Below are positions 14,247 through 27,077 of a stretch of DNA of 34,708 nucleotides, piece after piece. A program made the position numbers and the translations under genes. Positions within the stretch are counted from its first letter, which is position 1; each line of letters opens with the position of its first letter. The notes under the pieces were generated by a model, which ran no database searches, was not told the DNA's origin, and saw only the letters and a program-made list of their open reading frames with translations. Origin of the DNA: Ignavibacteria bacterium (lineage in GTDB: Bacteria; Bacteroidota; Ignavibacteria; Tepidaquicellales; OLB5); the NCBI GenBank assembly GCA_030835005.1, contig JAUQWT010000085.1:1-34708 (forward strand), in the 5' to 3' direction.

Positions 14247-14627
14247 ATGGAAAGAATAATGTGCAAATCAAAGCTGCACCGCGCGACGGTAACGCAGGCT
14301 GAACTGTTTTACGAAGGAAGCGTAACGATCGATGCTGATCTGCTGGATGCTGCAGATATAGTGCCTTACGAAAAAATTCAGGTTGTCAATATCAACAATG
14401 GCTCCCGGTTTGAAAGTTACGCAATCGAAGGCAGAAGAAGAAGCGGAACAATATGCATTAATGGCGCAGCAGCAAGAATGGCAGCAGTTGGTGACGAAAT
14501 AATTATCATTTCGTATGCAAACTATAATGAAGAAGAATTGAAGTCATTTAAGCCTACGCTTATTATGATGGATAAGGGCAACAAGATTAAGGACATTAAG
14601 CATACTAACGAAATAATAGAAGTGTAA
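14247..14627 (+). CDS. panD: Aspartate 1-decarboxylase
   Basis: 126 aa; [54 protein letters not shown]. Confidence 0.95.
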
Positions 14628-14980
14628 TGAAAAGACTTATATATTTGCTTCCGATAGTTGCAATTTTTATTTGTTCCGGCAGTTTATTTTCCCAGAAAAT
14701 GTATAAGGTTCAGTATGAATCACAGGCTGATCTGAAAATTTATGTGGTCTCGTATGAATCGCAGGCTGATTTGAATGTTTATATGGTCAAATATGAATCT
14801 CAGGCAAGCAAAGACGGTTTGTGGTACAATGTTGCTTACGAAAGCCAGGCAGATTTTAAGCTCTATTTCGTTGAATACGAATCTCAGGCTGACCTGAAGA
14901 TCTATTTTGTAGATTACGAGTCACAAGTTGGATGGAAGAACAAGCAGAAAGAGTATCTTTTGAAGTTTAAGAATAATTAA
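14627..14980 (+). CDS. Exported six-repeat (YESQAD) protein, DUF6150/septknot-like
   Basis: 117 aa; signal peptide [23 protein letters not shown]; six YESQ repeats (YKVQYESQADLKIYVVSYESQADLNVYMVKYESQAS...); ATG overlaps the panD TAA. Confidence 0.75.
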   Translation: MKRLIYLLPIVAIFICSGSLFSQKMYKVQYESQADLKIYVVSYESQADLNVYMVKYESQASKDGLWYNVAYESQADFKLYFVEYESQADLKIYFVDYESQVGWKNKQKEYLLKFKNN

Positions 14981-16938: not shown

Positions 16939-17382
16939 CTATGCATGATGTGTATGCTCTGCCATATCCTGTCCATCGGGGAAATGAAGATTGAGGTCAA
17001 CATCAATATCCGGATGAATGCTTTTTGCCACGGGACAGTGAAGAGCGACTGCTTCAAGAATTCCTCTTTTATCAAAAGGAATTCCGGCAGGAAACTTTAT
17101 ATCTGCAACAAGCTTTACAACTCTTCTTGGCGAATCTGAGCTCATATGCTTTTCTATTCTGCATGTTGTGCCTTCCATGTTTATGCCGCGGTCCAGCGCC
17201 GAAATTCCCATAGTAGTAAGGTAACATGCCGCCAGTGAAGCCGCCAACAGGTCTGTTGGCGAGAAACTTTCTCCTTTGCCTCGATTATCTGCCGGCGCAT
17301 CTGTTTCAATTGTTACTCCGCTTGATTTATGAATGGCTTTGCAGTGAAGGCCGCCTTCATAAGTTGTATTTATTTCTACCAT
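16939..17382 (-). CDS. OsmC family protein
   Basis: 147 aa; SFSPTDLLAASLAACYLTTMGISALDRGI...EAVALHCPVAKSIHPDIDV. Confidence 0.88.
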   Translation of the reverse strand: MVEINTTYEGGLHCKAIHKSSGVTIETDAPADNRGKGESFSPTDLLAASLAACYLTTMGISALDRGINMEGTTCRIEKHMSSDSPRRVVKLVADIKFPAGIPFDKRGILEAVALHCPVAKSIHPDIDVDLNLHFPDGQDMAEHTHHA

Positions 17383-17477
17383 GATAATTATCTCCGGTTT
17401 GTTAGAAGCTCTTATGCAAAATTAACCAATTATTGCATCAAATAATCTGACGATTTTATGGATAATCGAATGAAAAA

Positions 17478-17493
17478 GGAGCCATTTGGCTCC
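17478..17493 (-). terminator. Rho-independent terminator (GGAGCCATTTGGCTCC)
   Basis: Perfect 7-bp arms, 2-nt loop, T-run on the minus strand; downstream of nrfA. Confidence 0.65.
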
Positions 17494-17614
17494 CTTAAAT
17501 TGCGTAGTTTGGATTATTTCCTCCCGGCGTTAGTCTGCGGCTCTACTTATCTTCAACACCAAATGTGAGTTTTTGAAAGCAAAGCACTCTAATATTTGAT
17601 TTTTAATATTTTAA

Positions 17615-18910
17615 TTACTTTGCTGCCAGATTTTTCATCAGTCTTTCTGCTGCAATTTGCGACTGCCGTGCATAATCAATCGCATTGCCTAATGTTTTCA
17701 ATGTTTCCTGAGGGGAGTGGAAACCCATAGAATTTTCTGCTGCAACAAAATCCCATCTAAGCTGTGCACGGCGATGAAGTTTTCGCGCTTCTTTCAATTG
17801 TTCATCTGTTGCACCTGCATCCTTAGCTGTTTTGATTGCAGTGATTGCATCCAGTATAGCATTCTCGGACTTAATCATTGTTTCATAAACCCTGTCCTGA
17901 ATTGTCTTAACTCTTCCTGCCAGTTCTTCTTCGCTCCACTTATGACAAGTCTGGCAGGCATTGTTGATGTTGCGCAGCGGTGATTTTATCCAGTGATTTG
18001 TAACTTTGAGGGAACCAACTCTTTCATACGGCATGTGGCAATCAACGCAGCTTACACCGCTTTTAGCATGTATGCCTGTTGACCATGTTTCAAACTCCGG
18101 GTGCTGCATTTTTATCATTGGCGCACCGGATGTTTCGTGATCCCAATCTTTAAAACCGTACTCATCATAATATGCTTCAATGCTGTCAACAGAAAGGCCC
18201 TTATCCCACGGGAATGTCAGATATTTTCCATCGCCTTTGAAGTAATACTCAACATGGCATTGCCCGCAAACATAGCTTCTCATCTGCTCGCGCGTGGCTT
18301 TTGTAACATCAATTCCTCTTCTCTGCATCGCTTCAATGAATGCCGGACGCTGAACTCTAAGCGCCATTGTCTTGGGGTCATGGCAATCAAGGCAGCCGAT
18401 GCCCTTATCATAATGCGCGCCCACATCTTTAAACATCGCTTTGTAAAAATTCTCTGTGCCCATTTTTTCAACATCAACAAGTACCTGTGAGCTTTTGCAG
18501 CTGATACAGGTATTTGCAGTCTTTTCATTAACGCGCAGAGTGTTTTTCACATCAGTAATAGCCCAGTAATGTCCGCGCTCTTCGCGGTAATCTTTAGAGA
18601 ATGGATAACCTGCAAACAGTTTTATCAACTGCGGATACTTCTCTAGCTTCTGGTAATTATCCGAGCCCCCGAATTGAGTAGGACCTTCATTTGTTTCAGT
18701 TTTTAAAAAGCTGTCATACTCAAACGGGAAATTTTCGCCCCATACTTTAGGGTCGGTTTCTTTATCACCAACAGGTTTGAATACAGATGGATACAAATTT
18801 GCTTCCTGCTTCTTTTCGAATATGTTTATCAGCAGCAGCGTAATTCCAACCGTCACCAGTGCAGTTATGAAAAAGATGAAGAAATATTTTTTATTTAACG
18901 GGTTAGCCAT
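17615..18910 (-). CDS. nrfA: Ammonia-forming cytochrome c nitrite reductase, catalytic subunit
   Basis: 431 aa; one CxxCK (CISCK) and four CxxCH haem motifs (CLDCH, CGQCH, CVDCH, CQTCH); N-terminal anchor. Confidence 0.93.
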   Translation of the reverse strand: MANPLNKKYFFIFFITALVTVGITLLLINIFEKKQEANLYPSVFKPVGDKETDPKVWGENFPFEYDSFLKTETNEGPTQFGGSDNYQKLEKYPQLIKLFAGYPFSKDYREERGHYWAITDVKNTLRVNEKTANTCISCKSSQVLVDVEKMGTENFYKAMFKDVGAHYDKGIGCLDCHDPKTMALRVQRPAFIEAMQRRGIDVTKATREQMRSYVCGQCHVEYYFKGDGKYLTFPWDKGLSVDSIEAYYDEYGFKDWDHETSGAPMIKMQHPEFETWSTGIHAKSGVSCVDCHMPYERVGSLKVTNHWIKSPLRNINNACQTCHKWSEEELAGRVKTIQDRVYETMIKSENAILDAITAIKTAKDAGATDEQLKEARKLHRRAQLRWDFVAAENSMGFHSPQETLKTLGNAIDYARQSQIAAERLMKNLAAK

Positions 18911-18969
18911 GATAAAATTTGTTATTTAATATTTGATTTCTTTAGCGTTCAATTCGTAATTCCTAATTG

Positions 18970-19413
18970 TCATTTCATATGCCCCACGCTTCTATGGCAT
19001 GATGTGCACTGAATCTTCGTGTTCTCGGTTTCATGAAAAGTAATGCCCGATACTACAGTTGTATGGCAGTAGCGGCAATTTTCTTCAAGTATGTCTCTGT
19101 TCCTTTGGTTGACTTGTATGGGTTCATGGAAATCGCCTGATGTAAATGCGTAACTGTGATTCCACCCGTTTAGACCTTTGGTGAACCACTTGCCGGCAAA
19201 GTTTTTGGGAGTATGGCAGTCATTACAAGTTGCAACTGAGCGGTGAGAGCCTCTTTGCCAGCCGTTGTACTGGTCATCCATTATATGGCAGTTATCGCAT
19301 GCTGCGGGGTCATCCTGCAAATATGAATATCCCTTGGCATAATAGAAAGTTGCCCCGCCAATTCCCGCCGCAACTCCGGTAAATATATAAAGTAAAAGGA
19401 AAAGTTTTCCCAT
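18970..19413 (-). CDS. nrfH: Cytochrome c nitrite reductase small subunit (NapC/NirT type)
   Basis: 147 aa; N-terminal TM helix; four CxxCH motifs (CDNCH, CNDCH, CRYCH, CTSCH); directly upstream of nrfA. Confidence 0.92.
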   Translation of the reverse strand: MGKLFLLLYIFTGVAAGIGGATFYYAKGYSYLQDDPAACDNCHIMDDQYNGWQRGSHRSVATCNDCHTPKNFAGKWFTKGLNGWNHSYAFTSGDFHEPIQVNQRNRDILEENCRYCHTTVVSGITFHETENTKIQCTSCHRSVGHMK

Positions 19414-19537
19414 CTATAGTTTCATCTTTACACAAAATTTCTCATTTTTTTGTCAACTTTCAAGTGAAAATCGTTTTTGAATATCCTTTGAGAAAGTAAT
19501 TTTGTTTAGTATAGTCTTCGACCTTTGTCAAAAAAAA

Positions 19538-19553
19538 GGAGCCTGTTGGCTCC
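19538..19553 (-). terminator. Rho-independent terminator (GGAGCCtgttGGCTCC)
   Basis: 6-bp GC-rich stem, long T-run on the minus strand; between the porin-like CDS stop and nrfH start. Confidence 0.65.
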
Positions 19554-19624
19554 TTGGTCTGTATTCCTATTTTTGATTTGTTGCTTTACTTTGTTTCATA
19601 TCTTTCATTTCGCGCTCCCCTGCC

Positions 19625-20686
19625 TTACTTAAACACAAAGAAAAACGTCATACGTGCAGCAAGATCTGTTTTGCGCTCTGCAGCTGTATTAGTCTTTTTA
19701 GCATATGAGTTCATCCAAACATTCGGCATGAAATGGATATTCTCTATCGGCATGTAATCCAGGCCAACAGTGATGAAGTTTTCTTTGTAGCCCGTGGAGT
19801 CATTTTTTGAATCCGGATTGTACATATCATACCTTGCAAACACGTTCAGTACAGGTTTATTTTCCCTGCCCAGCAAGTTACCCCAGATAAATCCGCCAAT
19901 TCCAAATGGCGCTGCGTCAACTCCTGTTCCTCCGGCATTTTTCTGAGTCTGCTGAAACACCTCAACACCTGCATTGAATTTTTCATAGGTGTAACCAACA
20001 AATCCTTTTAGTGTAGTTTTATTCTTCTCACCGTCTGCGGGTTCATAGTCGCCATACACTTCCATTTGCAGGCCTTTTACTGGCTTAGCAAATAATGTTC
20101 CGTAGTACTTCTTGTGTTTATTAATTTCAGGTTTCTGCCCGTTTCCGTTGCCTATCATAAATGCAAAGCCATAATTGCCCGCTTTATCAAACTTGCCGCG
20201 GGCGGCCACGCCTAAGTCGCTTGCTAGTACAAATCCTCTCATATCTATCAGGGTTTTTTCAACTGCGCGGTAATTCCATGCCTTTTCACTAAGAGCCCAT
20301 GAAATTGTTGGAGTTGGCACAAGTCCTATAGCAAAGCTTACTTTTTCAAATGCCTTCCATTCAACAAATGCAGTTTTTATGATTAGGCCAAATCTCGTGC
20401 TGGTGATTATTTTGTCGTTGCCTTCAAGCAGTATCTGCGAGCTGAACTTGTCATTAAAAACATAATCATACCCAAGGTATGCCCTTCGCATTTCAAATCC
20501 CTGGAATGATTTGCTATAAGGGGAGTACTGCGTTGAACTACCGGTAGAATCACCCGAAACTTTAAAAAAGTAATCCCCGAAAACATATCCCCAAAGCTTT
20601 CCGCCTTTATCCTGAGAATGAACGCTGTCAGCACTCAAACTTATGATACTTAGAAACAGCAAAACTGATAACAATTCTTTTTTCAT
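19625..20686 (-). CDS. Outer-membrane porin-like beta-barrel protein
   Basis: 353 aa; signal peptide; FEMRRAYLGYDYVFNDKFSSQILLEGNDK..., repeated amphipathic strands, C-terminal MTFFFVFK. Confidence 0.75.
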   Translation of the reverse strand: MKKELLSVLLFLSIISLSADSVHSQDKGGKLWGYVFGDYFFKVSGDSTGSSTQYSPYSKSFQGFEMRRAYLGYDYVFNDKFSSQILLEGNDKIITSTRFGLIIKTAFVEWKAFEKVSFAIGLVPTPTISWALSEKAWNYRAVEKTLIDMRGFVLASDLGVAARGKFDKAGNYGFAFMIGNGNGQKPEINKHKKYYGTLFAKPVKGLQMEVYGDYEPADGEKNKTTLKGFVGYTYEKFNAGVEVFQQTQKNAGGTGVDAAPFGIGGFIWGNLLGRENKPVLNVFARYDMYNPDSKNDSTGYKENFITVGLDYMPIENIHFMPNVWMNSYAKKTNTAAERKTDLAARMTFFFVFK

Positions 20687-20801
20687 ATTACTGTATAAAT
20701 TAATTTATAAGTTATTGTTAAATTCTTAATTATTTATATAAAATTATCGTTAAGAAATTAAGTTAATGTAAACAAATTATTAAGTTTCCATTAAGAAAAA
20801 A

Positions 20802-20836
20802 CCCCCGAATCATTCCAAAATGGGATGAAACGGGGG
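20802..20836 (-). terminator. Nested-hairpin terminator (CCCCCGaaTCATTCCaaaatGGGATGAaaCGGGGG)
   Basis: Outer CCCCCG/CGGGGG and inner TCATTCC/GGGATGA (one G:U) stems, then TTTTTT on the minus strand; downstream of the OsmC CDS. Confidence 0.7.
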
Positions 20837-20897
20837 CTTTATTTCATTGAAGCATAATCTTTAATATTAACCGAACATTATTCACAGAATCTTAACA

Positions 20898-21305
20898 CTA
20901 CTTATTAAGATTGTATGAAGAAGTTAGTTCCGCAGATTTATGCAGCATTGCATGAACGCGGCAGTACTTTTCCTCGGAAAGTTTTATTGCACGCTCAATG
21001 ACTTCCGGCTCAAGCTCCCTGCCAATGAAGTTATATGTTAAGTGTATCCTGGTGTAAACTTTTGGATGTTCAGGTGCTTCTTCGGCAGTAATATCTATCC
21101 AGAATTTATCGATCTTCTTTCTTGATTTGCCGACTATCAGCGCGCAATCCATCATAGTGCATCCGGCAAGTGCCTGCAAAAGCAGCTGTGCAGGTGATGC
21201 CGCACTGGCATTCTCACCGGAATCCATTAAAACCGTTAATCCATTCTCAGTTGTACCTTTTAGCTTGAAGCCTTCAATCCACTCAACACTGGCTGTTTTT
21301 GTCAT
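20898..21305 (-). CDS. OsmC family protein (second copy)
   Basis: 135 aa; SPAQLLLQALAGCTMMDCALIVGKSRKKID...AIKLSEEKYCRVHAML. Confidence 0.88.
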   Translation of the reverse strand: MTKTASVEWIEGFKLKGTTENGLTVLMDSGENASAASPAQLLLQALAGCTMMDCALIVGKSRKKIDKFWIDITAEEAPEHPKVYTRIHLTYNFIGRELEPEVIERAIKLSEEKYCRVHAMLHKSAELTSSYNLNK

Positions 21306-21321
21306 TTATCAAAAAGTATTC

Positions 21322-22665
21322 TTAATTATAGTTCTTTGATTTTGCAAACTTCTCAAGCTCTTCGCGAAACTTTGGATGCGAAATGCCTATAAGCGCACTT
21401 ACTCTTTCCCTCACATTCATTCCATGAAGGTCAACGGCGCCGTACTCGGTAACAACCCAGTGTACATCACCGCGTGAAGTAGTGACTCCTGCCCCCTCTT
21501 CAAGATGCGGAACGATCCTTGAAAGTGTGCCTTTCTTTGCAGTTGATTGCAGCGCAATTATCGGTTTACCGCCTTTTGAACGTGAAGCGCCCCTGATAAA
21601 ATCAACCTGCCCGCCAAATCCGCTGTAGAAATTGTAGCCTATTGAGTCAGAGCAAACCTGCCCTGTCATATCAACCTGCAGACATGAGTTTATTGCCACC
21701 ATCTTATCATTTCTTGCAATTACGAAAGGATCATTTACAAAATCTGTTGTTCTCATTTCAACAAAAGGATTATTGTGAATATACTCGAAAAGCGTATGCG
21801 AGCCAAGCACAAAAGAAGTTACCATCTTTCCTCGAAGAAGTGTTTTCTTATCGCAGTTAATTACTCCGCTTTCTATAAGCGGTATTACACCGTCTGAAAA
21901 CATCTCTGTATGGATACCAAGATCTTTCCTGTCGCCAAGGAGTCCAAGCACTGCATCGGGAATCGCGCCGATACCCATTTGAAGTGTTGAACCGTCTTCA
22001 ATAAGATCTGCGATATTCTGTCCGATTTTCTGAAAAATTTTCAGCTCTTCCGGGTCTTTTTCTGCATGCATTCCGGGGAGCTCCTGCAAATCCTGTTCAT
22101 ACTCAAAGGCATAATCAATATCACTAATGTTGATGAAGCTGTCTCCGTGTACCCTTGGCATTTTGGGATTTACCTGTGCGATTACAAGCCTTGCAACATG
22201 TACAGCAGCCTTTGTGCAGTCAACAGCAACACCCATGCTGCAGAATCCATGCATATCCGGAGGTGACACCTGAATAAGCACTACATCAACCAAATGTTTC
22301 GTATCATGATTTATAAGTTTCGGTATTTCTGAAAGGAATATCGGCATAAAATCTGCTTTGCCTGCATTAACAACCTTACGTGTATTGGCTCCAAGAAAAA
22401 ATCCATTATGCCTGAAATGGCCTTCCATTTCAGGTTTCATATACGGCGCTTCGCCAAATACCATTAAGTGGCAGATTTCAACATCTTTTAATTCGGGAGC
22501 TCTTTCTGACATTGCTTCCACAAGCCTTTGCGGATATGCACAGCCTGACTGAATATAAACCCTGTCTCCTGATTTTATTGCTTTTACAGATTCTTCGGGT
22601 GTAACAAATTTATTGGAATATTTTTGTCTGATTCTATTCGATTTTTCTTTAATTTGAGTTAACAC
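21322..22665 (-). CDS. Acetyl-CoA hydrolase/transferase family (4-hydroxybutyrate CoA-transferase-like)
   Basis: 447 aa; FVTPEESVKAIKSGDRVYIQSGCAYPQRLVEA, LQMGIGAIPDAVLGLL, DFIRGASRSKGGKPIIALQSTAKKGTLSRIVPHLEEGAGVTTSRGDVHWVVTEYG. Confidence 0.9.
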   Translation of the reverse strand: MLTQIKEKSNRIRQKYSNKFVTPEESVKAIKSGDRVYIQSGCAYPQRLVEAMSERAPELKDVEICHLMVFGEAPYMKPEMEGHFRHNGFFLGANTRKVVNAGKADFMPIFLSEIPKLINHDTKHLVDVVLIQVSPPDMHGFCSMGVAVDCTKAAVHVARLVIAQVNPKMPRVHGDSFINISDIDYAFEYEQDLQELPGMHAEKDPEELKIFQKIGQNIADLIEDGSTLQMGIGAIPDAVLGLLGDRKDLGIHTEMFSDGVIPLIESGVINCDKKTLLRGKMVTSFVLGSHTLFEYIHNNPFVEMRTTDFVNDPFVIARNDKMVAINSCLQVDMTGQVCSDSIGYNFYSGFGGQVDFIRGASRSKGGKPIIALQSTAKKGTLSRIVPHLEEGAGVTTSRGDVHWVVTEYGAVDLHGMNVRERVSALIGISHPKFREELEKFAKSKNYN

Positions 22666-22742
22666 AGCTCTTTTCTCCTGTCAATCTTGGTTAGTTGTAT
22701 TATGTTTAATTCATTCTGATGAATATAAATCTTTTTCAAAAT

Positions 22743-23999
22743 CTATTTCTTTTCTCTTTCGTCAAAGAAGTCTCCCAGTTTAAATCTTGCATTTATGAAT
22801 GCCGTTATAACTCCAAACTTCCCGGATTGAGTTTTAGAAAGCCTTATGGACGGGCCGAATGCAAATGCGTTAAGCGCAAAGCCTTCTCCTATATTGGATA
22901 CCATTATTTCAACAAGAAGCTGGAAATTTCTTATTTTTTTCAACGTAGCGTTTACCCTGAAATCAAATACTGCTCCGGCAAGGCGGCTTTCGCGTGTCAT
23001 CATTCCAATATGCGTTTCATTTGCATAATATGCAATATAAACCTGTGATCGGGTTGAGCCAAACATCCTGAACGGGTAACGGAACTCTGCATTAAGATAT
23101 GTTCCTTTAAGCACATTGTTAGGCATTGGTTTTGTACTGTCGCCGTTCTCGTAAAACGTATACATCGGCCCGTTAGTGTTATTCATATTCCCGGCCAGCT
23201 TTACATCACTAAGTACACCAACTTCCAGAAAATTGCCAAGCGGGATCACATAGCTTAACTCGATCGCTCTTATAGGTGAATATATATTATTATACTGCTT
23301 CCACGGATAGTTATCTCCTGCTGCCGGATCTATGGCGTGTGTATTCAGGTTATCTATACTGGTATTATAGCTTACACTCACTCCTATAATATTCATTCCA
23401 ACACTAACAAGATCACTTTCAAACGGTGCGCTGTATTTGTTCCCAATGCCAAATGTAAAACCTATCGATCGTTTGAGCGGTATGCCCAGCTTTTCGCCTC
23501 CGAATAACTGAAAGTACGGATTGATATAAGCAGTTGTGCTTCTGATCGTACGCTCTCTTTTAGGAGGCGCAATAAACTCTTTAATTTTTATCTGCCGTAT
23601 GACATCTAAGAACACACTGGCGTAATCAAGCCTTTTGGCGTTCATGTTCTCTTTATTGGTACCGGTCCAGCTGATCAGGCCATCCTGTACACGCTTAGAA
23701 AGCTGGCTCCATGCATATCTTTGTGCGCTTGGATCGCTTTCATCACCCAGCACTACGTACTGGTTTTGAGAGTTTCCATCCATAACATTGATAACTATAG
23801 TATAACTCTCAAGCTTGGGATCGATCCCCATATCATCCTGTGCCATAATAAATACGCTGTCATCATCTGCGCGCGCCATTATTTTGAAATACTTCCAGGA
23901 ACGCGGATTGCCTTCATCTTCTTGTTGAGCGTAAACGCTTATTAATTCGAAAGAACTAACAAATATTGCAAGAGCTATTAATTTTATCAGGGTTTTCAT
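22743..23999 (-). CDS. Uncharacterised outer-membrane / exported protein
   Basis: 418 aa; signal peptide (MKTLIKLIALAIFVSSFELISVYAQ); C-terminal half with beta-barrel-like alternating pattern. Confidence 0.7.
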   Translation of the reverse strand: MKTLIKLIALAIFVSSFELISVYAQQEDEGNPRSWKYFKIMARADDDSVFIMAQDDMGIDPKLESYTIVINVMDGNSQNQYVVLGDESDPSAQRYAWSQLSKRVQDGLISWTGTNKENMNAKRLDYASVFLDVIRQIKIKEFIAPPKRERTIRSTTAYINPYFQLFGGEKLGIPLKRSIGFTFGIGNKYSAPFESDLVSVGMNIIGVSVSYNTSIDNLNTHAIDPAAGDNYPWKQYNNIYSPIRAIELSYVIPLGNFLEVGVLSDVKLAGNMNNTNGPMYTFYENGDSTKPMPNNVLKGTYLNAEFRYPFRMFGSTRSQVYIAYYANETHIGMMTRESRLAGAVFDFRVNATLKKIRNFQLLVEIMVSNIGEGFALNAFAFGPSIRLSKTQSGKFGVITAFINARFKLGDFFDEREKK

Positions 24000-24315: not shown

Positions 24316-24798
24316 TCAGGTGAATATAATGTTTGCCCCGGCAGACGTTTCGTAGAATTCACCCACCGTAATCACATCATCAACTTCTGCGCAAAAGTCC
24401 TCTTTCTTCAAATGGAACATATCTACCGAAGCTTTGCATGCATATATATTGCAGCCGGCGTCATGTATCATCTGGATAAACTCCCGTACAGGCGGAATAT
24501 CGATCTTTTCCATTTCCTTTTCCATCATATGGGTTGCAAGTGCACTCATTCCCGGCAATGAACCAAGCAATGTCGGCATATGCATTGCAGGGTTGCCCAC
24601 GGTTGCAACTTTGAGGTGATCCATCTTCTTATTAATAATTGCCTCCATACCAAAAAAGGTAAAGAACAAATTTGCTTCAATCCCTTCCATTCTGGCACCA
24701 TTGGCCATTATGAGTCCGGGATACACTCCTTCGAGTGAGCCTTTGGAAATAATTATTGATACTTTTTTCACAGGCTCGTAATTGTTTTCTTCTAACAT
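24316..24798 (-). CDS. DsrE/DsrF-like family protein (DsrE2/DsrE3-type)
   Basis: 160 aa; LLGSLPGMSALATHMMEKEMEKIDIPPVREFIQMIHDAGCNIYACKASVDMF. Confidence 0.85.
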   Translation of the reverse strand: MLEENNYEPVKKVSIIISKGSLEGVYPGLIMANGARMEGIEANLFFTFFGMEAIINKKMDHLKVATVGNPAMHMPTLLGSLPGMSALATHMMEKEMEKIDIPPVREFIQMIHDAGCNIYACKASVDMFHLKKEDFCAEVDDVITVGEFYETSAGANIIFT

Positions 24799-24890: not shown

Positions 24891-25220
24891 TTAAATACAT
24901 CCTTTCGGCTTGGGCAGCCCTGCGATCTTTGCTGCTTTTTTTGCCGGCCCTTTTGGGAAAAGAGCATAAAGCATTTTAGTATCTACTCCGCTTTCCTTAG
25001 TGAGCTTTCTGATTGAAGGCGAGTCCCCGGTTTCAGAAAACACTTTGCGCATAAAGTTTATCACTTTCCAGTGATCTTCCGTTAATTTCTCGATACCTTC
25101 TTCTTTTGCGATCTCGGCGGCGATCTCTTCATTCCAGTCTTTAAGATCAACCAGATTCCCGTCTGCATCAACCTGCATTGATTTCCCGAGTATTTCCTTT
25201 ACTCCTGCTGCAATAGACAT
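24891..25220 (-). CDS. DsrC/TusE family sulfur-carrier-like protein
   Basis: 109 aa; DLKDWNEEIAAEIAKEEGIEKLTEDHWKVINFMR...LYALFPKGPAKKAAKIAGLPKPKGCI; C-terminal penultimate Cys present. Confidence 0.9.
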   Translation of the reverse strand: MSIAAGVKEILGKSMQVDADGNLVDLKDWNEEIAAEIAKEEGIEKLTEDHWKVINFMRKVFSETGDSPSIRKLTKESGVDTKMLYALFPKGPAKKAAKIAGLPKPKGCI

Positions 25221-25244: not shown

Positions 25245-26501
25245 TTAATTTATAATTGGTTTCAAAATCGTATCAATATCTTTTCCCATTAACGACATCT
25301 CCGATCCAACAGGAAGTTCCTTGCCCCTGATAAGAAAATTCCAGTAAGCCCATCTGAACAAAAGTTTGCCAATGTGATTCATACGGGTTTCTTTTAAAAG
25401 CGAAAATGGCCCGACAAATGGCAGGGGAAATGATCCTGTAACCGGCTCAACTTCGTAATTAAAATCAATTAGGAATGCCTTTCCGTGGCCGGATTCTATA
25501 AAACAGTTTGCATGCCCGTCATATTTAGCTTCAAGCGGTTCGCCATTTATGAAATGCATGATATTTTCTGCCAGAATTTCAGATTCAAAATGAGCAACCG
25601 AGCCCGCCTTGCTTGCCGGTATGTTTGCAGCATCACCTATTACAAAAATATTTTCATGGTTTGCTGAGCGCAGTGTGAATTTATCTGTAGGTACGAAGTT
25701 AAGCTCATCTCCAAGTCCGCTTCTGCCAATATAATCGGCGCCTTTATTTGTTGGTATAGTTACCAGCAGGTCAAAATCAACTTCTCTTTCATCCCACGAG
25801 ACGATCTGCCTTTTTTCATTATCAATCCGTCCTGTATTGAAATCTGGAACCAGCTCAATGCCTTTATCTTCAAGAAAGTGGCCAAGCACTTCTGCGCAGT
25901 TATGTTTTGTAAATGCTTCCGAGAGCGGAGTGACATATTTTATCGACGTCTTTTCTCGGATTCCCCTATCTTCAAAAAATGAATCAGCCAGGAAGGCAAA
26001 CTCAAGAGGTGCTACCGGGCATTTTATGGGCATTTCGGTAATGTTGATAACAAGCTTCCCGCCCTCCCATGTGCTGAATTTTTCGGAAAGCGCTTTTGCT
26101 CCTTCGAAAGTATAAAAATCAAATATATCCTTGTGCCAAAGCTTACCCAATAATCCTTCCGTCTCTTCCGGTGCTATCTTTGAACCTGTTGCAATTAAGA
26201 GTACGTCATAGTCAAGTATCTCGCCGCTTTCCAGCTGTACTTTATTAAAATCAGGAAGCACTTTCCATATTTCGGAAAACAATACTTGAGTATTATGAGG
26301 GAAGAATTCGCACTTGGGTTTTACAACATCTGAGGCTTTATAAATCCCAAAAGGCAAGAACAAAAAACCCGGTTGGTAGTAGTGTGTCTTATCATTATCA
26401 ACTATAGTTATTCTCCATTGATTCTTATCAAGCAGTTTATTTAACTTGTTAAGCATCATCGTACCGCCTGTTCCTGCTCCAAGAATAACCAGATTTCTCA
26501 T
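25245..26501 (-). CDS. Sulfide:quinone oxidoreductase-like FAD-dependent oxidoreductase
   Basis: 418 aa; N-terminal GAGTGGTMMLNKL Rossmann motif, YYQPGFLFLPFG, IKCPVAPLEFAF, NIFVIGDAANIPASKAGSVAHFE, C-terminal amphipathic tail. Confidence 0.85.
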   Translation of the reverse strand: MRNLVILGAGTGGTMMLNKLNKLLDKNQWRITIVDNDKTHYYQPGFLFLPFGIYKASDVVKPKCEFFPHNTQVLFSEIWKVLPDFNKVQLESGEILDYDVLLIATGSKIAPEETEGLLGKLWHKDIFDFYTFEGAKALSEKFSTWEGGKLVINITEMPIKCPVAPLEFAFLADSFFEDRGIREKTSIKYVTPLSEAFTKHNCAEVLGHFLEDKGIELVPDFNTGRIDNEKRQIVSWDEREVDFDLLVTIPTNKGADYIGRSGLGDELNFVPTDKFTLRSANHENIFVIGDAANIPASKAGSVAHFESEILAENIMHFINGEPLEAKYDGHANCFIESGHGKAFLIDFNYEVEPVTGSFPLPFVGPFSLLKETRMNHIGKLLFRWAYWNFLIRGKELPVGSEMSLMGKDIDTILKPIIN

Positions 26502-26596: not shown

Positions 26597-26637
26597 ACAT
26601 TAATATCTTGTTTTACATATATTTAAGTACATAAAAA

Positions 26638-26659
26638 GGCCATACTGTTAAGTATGGCC
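26638..26659. terminator. Terminator-like hairpin (GGCCATACT-gtta-AGTATGGCC)
   Basis: 9-bp perfect stem with AAAAA on its 5' side (T-run on the minus strand). Confidence 0.55.
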
Positions 26660-27077
26660 TATATTATCGTTAGTCATATTTTAGGTATCGCAATTCTGTC
26701 TATTGGCTTTTCCTTTCTAACGTGAGAAAAGCAAATGATTTATACCAAGTTTCTGATTATTTATCTGCCGGAATGACGATTTTCCTATTTGCTGCAGCCC
26801 TTTTTTCGCAATCCGGTTCTATGTTCTTTGGTGTTATGATGCACTGTTTAACAGAACGATCTTTGTAACCGGAAAATATTTTGTTTTTTGACCGCGCTTA
26901 CATCTGGGAGTTAAACTCCCCGGCATAACCGGCTGAACAACTTCCTGATAGAGACCCATTGAATGCTTTACTTGAAGAATCCCCATCACCCACAAAGTTA
27001 ATATACTACATAAAGGGTATCCTATGACGGCTATCAAATGATTAAATGATTTTTATCTATGGAAATTCCGGTGTCGC

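Follow-up and report, generated by a model that had tools for sequence, protein, structure and literature searches.

In the stretch of Ignavibacteria DNA analysed here (34,708 nucleotides, hereafter the window), a gene for a single-cysteine DsrC/TusE-family protein stands between genes for a sulfide:quinone reductase (SQR) and a DsrE2-like protein. The same gene set recurs in many bacterial phyla, which suggests a route of sulfur hand-over without sulfite reductase. We regard it as fairly probable that the three genes encode a cytoplasmic sulfane-sulfur relay charged by sulfide oxidation, in which sulfur would pass from SQR to the DsrE2-like protein, then to C108 of the DsrC-like protein and on to an acceptor other than DsrAB. 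The direction of transfer, the donor, the acceptor and the activity are what we infer by analogy with characterized sulfur carriers.

The DsrC-like protein (24891..25220, minus strand; 109 residues from an ATG) matches the Pfam DsrC profile PF04358 at 128 bits (2e-37; cut-off 24.9) and TIGR03342 at 112 bits (cut-off 53.5). Its predicted fold (pLDDT 87) agrees with this assignment: all eight PDB matches at E ≤ 0.001 belong to the DsrC family, and TM-scores against 3or1, 3or2 and 2xsj range from 0.83 to 0.88. The tail reads KGPAKKAAKIAGLPKPKGCI. As a reading made from the sequence alone had claimed, the penultimate cysteine is present (C108, codon 24897-24899), while the upstream arm cysteine, Cys100 in Allochromatium vinosum DsrC, is replaced by alanine when the protein is compared with solved DsrC proteins (A97, codon 24930-24932). 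The spacing of ten given in that reading was a small miscount, A97 and C108 lying eleven positions apart with ten residues between them. The protein thus lacks the full pair of arm cysteines of a canonical DsrC, and its description as a single-cysteine carrier holds. C108 and A97 are both invariant across the 28-row alignment used for the structure model, which left out the E. coli TusE row and three viral rows; two divergent members have threonine at the A97 site. Because alanine occupies this site in nearly all SQR-adjacent relatives, from many phyla, neither chance nor sequencing error accounts for the replaced cysteine.

The SQR gene (25245..26501, minus strand) ends 24 bp upstream of the DsrC-like gene on the same strand. 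Its product scores 632.7 bits against a cut-off of 525 for the NCBIfam family NF049943 ("type III sulfide quinone reductase, selenoprotein subtype"), and sulfide-dependent quinone reduction is its predicted activity. Two cysteines, C161 (PIKCPVAP, codon 26019-26021) and C333 (YDGHANC, codon 25503-25505), align with those in the PVKCAGAP and YDGYTSC motifs of human SQOR, which are the catalytic pair of that enzyme. Both are strictly kept, in 86/86 and 88/88 of the SQR relatives covering the respective sites. The selenocysteine motif of the type III family is HxxU (PMC13188914), and the HANC of the window's SQR occupies that place by motif; the protein belongs to the same family as the selenoprotein subtype but is its cysteine form, with HxxC where HxxU stands. 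A selenocysteine-containing SQR was rejected, in-frame TGA being absent from the 88 relatives examined. Upstream of the gene, a pattern scan detected a terminator-like hairpin with a 10-bp stem and a T tail (26637..26660, minus strand), a consensus match only, whose position fits a transcript that begins with SQR. On the other side, 92 bp downstream of the DsrC-like gene and on the same strand, lies the gene for the DsrE2-like sulfur carrier (24316..24798, minus strand; PF13686, 1e-32). We limit its name to "DsrE2-like" since it reaches 100.7 bits against the cut-off of 210 of the DsrE2 equivalog NF047629. Its C121 (codon 24436-24438) is the one invariant cysteine of the protein, found in 93/93 relatives.

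A scan of named genomes, whose query reaches close relatives only, yielded 80 loci. Where flanking sequence sufficed on both sides, SQR, DsrC and DsrE2 genes followed in this order on one strand in 63 of 70 loci; these represent 13 named phyla and include nine loci without phylum assignment. Counted separately, 73 of 74 loci have DsrE2 next to the DsrC-like gene and 69 of 76 have SQR upstream of it. In 56 of 76 loci a DUF1641 gene separates SQR from DsrC; none does so in the window. Cultured carriers of the module include Rhodohalobacter sulfatireducens (L064). The DUF1641 protein model is all-helical, and its low confidence (pTM 0.28) leads us to read no role from it. Since the named-genome query finds close relatives only, we also used an independent sample of 99 genomes of the class, picked by kinship to the window. 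In this sample, type III SQR exceeded its cut-off in all 32 genomes with a single-cysteine DsrC and in none of the nine with a two-cysteine DsrC. As these genomes are related to one another, a Fisher p value for this contrast overstates how independent they are. The only genome with SQR and no detected DsrC, G040, has DUF1641 as the next gene, and its contig stops within that gene. In Desulfurella acetivorans and a small number of others, a DsrC-DsrE2 pair occurs with no SQR beside it, so that SQR may not be the sole sulfur donor. The neighbourhood of the module contains no conserved acceptor gene. A phage or plasmid origin was rejected, since searches of phage and plasmid records, and of viral contigs, gave no match.

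The window's own genome, 95% complete, contains a single DsrC-family gene. The sequence-only reading had seen no dsrAB, and this now extends from the window to the genome, in which neither dsrAB nor a domain of assimilatory sulfite reductase (PF01077, NIR_SIR) was found; dsrAB hidden elsewhere, which would have implied Dsr metabolism, is accordingly rejected. TusB (PF04077) was absent from 58 genomes including this one, and TusA from this genome. MnmA is present here, and in the class it occurs irrespective of the module: 98 of the 99 genomes have a TrmU/MnmA match, which in 88 of them exceeds the curated cut-off, with or without the module. Among 48 module genomes, dsrA exceeded its cut-off in four, each with a second DsrC that has two cysteines in three cases and, in Desulfurella, valine at the second site.

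The steps of the putative relay may be pictured as follows. SQR would oxidize H2S at the membrane, pass two electrons to quinone and keep the sulfur in persulfide form between C161 and C333. C121 of the DsrE2-like protein would pick up this sulfane sulfur and deliver it to the DsrC-like protein, at C108 of its flexible arm. Missing its second arm cysteine, the latter can form neither an internal disulfide nor the DsrC trisulfide used by DsrAB, and would for this reason donate persulfide sulfur in one direction only, with something other than DsrAB as acceptor. In A. vinosum, DsrEFH gives sulfur to the penultimate cysteine of DsrC without need of the other arm cysteine, and glutathione persulfide and thiosulfate serve neither DsrEFH nor DsrC as a sulfur source (PMC3397948). 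In cable bacteria the step from DsrEFH to DsrC is one-way in vitro (PMC13293266). Transfer from the DsrE2-like protein to DsrC is proposed by analogy, as DsrE2 is only distantly related to the DsrE of DsrEFH. Of the earlier proposal that SQR, DsrC/TusE-like and DsrE-like proteins relay sulfur directly from sulfide oxidation, the fit of a conserved operon to a sulfane-sulfur relay stands; actual flow along this path, and its being "direct", are at the level of proposal.

One rival reading gives the module a TusE-like end use. E. coli TusE is likewise a DsrC-family protein with one arm cysteine, the penultimate one, with Ala/Thr at the second site and a basic arm: arm charge averages +5.05 in module proteins (n=115), against +2.6 in two-cysteine DsrC (n=35) and +5 in E. 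coli TusE. As this basicity matches that of TusE, an RNA-modifying acceptor is possible. The module might then replace IscS-TusA-TusBCD, with sulfide-derived sulfur going to MnmA, which makes 2-thiouridine in tRNA, or to some other enzyme of thiolation. Such an end use would suit the MnmA of the window's genome, but MnmA is near-universal in the class and the module is found in about a third of its genomes, so that MnmA is not dependent on it; moreover, TusB and TusA were not found, the module is linked to SQR and not to tRNA genes, and its proteins lack the insert that precedes LFP in TusE and A. vinosum DsrC. A tree computed without the second-cysteine columns placed 31 module proteins in one clade (support 99/92) adjoining short-form two-cysteine DsrC, and set E. 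coli TusE and two viral copies, the only representatives of the TusE side, apart (100/99). On the same alignment of only 102 columns, AU tests rejected neither a common clade of module and TusE (p 0.26) nor one of all arms without the second cysteine (p 0.20). We favour independent losses of this cysteine, to which the best tree and the missing insert point. Classical TusE, which with a complete TusBCD system would have made this ordinary tRNA thiolation, is rejected: the protein scores 87.7 bits against a cut-off of 191 for the NCBIfam TusE equivalog, lacks the insert and has no TusB or TusA beside it in its genome. The likeness to TusE noted in the sequence-only reading thus applies to the cysteine state and the basic arm, tRNA thiolation as an end use being a possibility that on balance we judge improbable.

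We give a similarly small chance to sulfide detoxification or persulfide buffering, in which the carriers would hold or release the product of SQR for export as polysulfide or sulfur, with no specific acceptor. SQR in heterotrophs is frequently protective against sulfide, and the users of sulfane sulfur that were looked for in the window's genome (dsrAB, TusB, TusA) are missing from it. However, a dedicated and strictly conserved chain of two carriers, often with DUF1641, exceeds the needs of a simple buffer, and the acceptors of SQR are usually small thiols. Sulfur could also flow in the opposite direction, persulfide sulfur being reduced: the carriers would deliver sulfane sulfur as polysulfide, and the flavoprotein would be a persulfide reductase. 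Retention of DUF1641-DsrC-DsrE2 by the sulfur reducer Desulfurella speaks for this, yet that very cluster has no adjacent SQR, the window's flavoprotein lies above the curated SQR cut-off and carries the SQOR cysteine pair, and the one-way transfer seen in vitro in cable bacteria opposes it. We consider reverse flow very unlikely. The relay charged by sulfide oxidation is the reading we prefer.

Several known systems resemble the module in part. E. coli TusE shares 47% identity with the DsrC-like protein, which is without the seven-residue TusE insert, falls in another clade in the best tree and belongs to a module linked to SQR and DsrE2 instead of TusBCD and TusA. Canonical DsrC working with DsrAB (2xsj, 1ji8, 1yx3) has the same fold, the penultimate cysteine and the short form without insert, but the module protein has alanine at the second arm cysteine and its genome no dsrAB; where dsrA and the module co-occur, the DsrC of dsrA is a separate gene. 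The DsrEFH-to-DsrC relay of A. vinosum and cable bacteria likewise places a DsrE-type carrier beside a DsrC-type protein with a penultimate cysteine, whereas the module has a single DsrE2-like protein, a donor that is apparently SQR and not TusA, and an acceptor other than DsrAB. The rhd-tusA-dsrE2 and YTD clusters also employ DsrE-type carriers in sulfur metabolism; the module lacks genes for TusA, rhodanese and YedE and has a DsrC-like protein instead.

In organisms without DsrAB, the second arm cysteine is almost always replaced by alanine, serine or threonine (PMC3397948, 2012). The family and its single-cysteine state are already known. What seems new is the conserved module, together with its distribution, no description of an SQR-DsrC-DsrE2 module having been found in the open-access literature. 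Single-cysteine DsrC proteins in genomes lacking dsrAB are commonly labelled TusE or tallied as DsrC; here the protein marks a conserved SQR operon in many largely uncultured phyla, recognizable by alanine at the second cysteine together with an adjacent SQR. Were the relay true, it would explain the fate of SQR sulfur in organisms without Dsr and Tus systems, and dsrC/tusE matches in metagenomes could not safely be read as sulfite reduction or tRNA thiolation. More tentatively, and with somewhat less than even confidence, we suggest that the DsrC family has a widespread third branch. This would be a relay needing neither DsrAB nor TusBCD, with SQR charging both a carrier of the DsrE2 type and a single-cysteine DsrC, possibly docked by the helical DUF1641 protein, so as to bring sulfide-derived sulfur to an enzyme in many bacterial phyla.

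Beyond the module, genes for a hypothetical protein, a CoA transferase, OsmC, a porin, NrfH, NrfA and a further OsmC follow in the same orientation (16939..23999, minus strand), as they do after the module in the window's family; the same order recurs in several congeneric genomes and in one other genome of the family (G013). The CoA transferase, OsmC, porin and NrfHA genes lie within 16939-22665. NrfA-family matches occur in 69 of the 99 class genomes. As NrfA is this common with or without the module, we rejected a link to nitrite ammonification and regard the NrfHA neighbourhood as local to the family, the genes from the hypothetical protein to the last OsmC probably being a local association outside the core module. 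Within L031-L110, 22 loci have a MerR-type regulator upstream of SQR and 13 have a FadL-type outer membrane protein downstream. In G013, the SQR gene (L175/L216) appears frame-shifted near its 3' end, which could be an assembly error. D. acetivorans A63 (L066) and L154 have two DsrC-family genes, though none is reported for the species in PMC5317093; one of the Desulfurella genes sits in the DUF1641-DsrC-DsrE2 cluster without SQR, the other near dsrA and with valine at the second cysteine. Finally, positions 14627-14980 of the window (plus strand) hold a 117-residue reading frame built of YESQADLKIYVV-type repeats.
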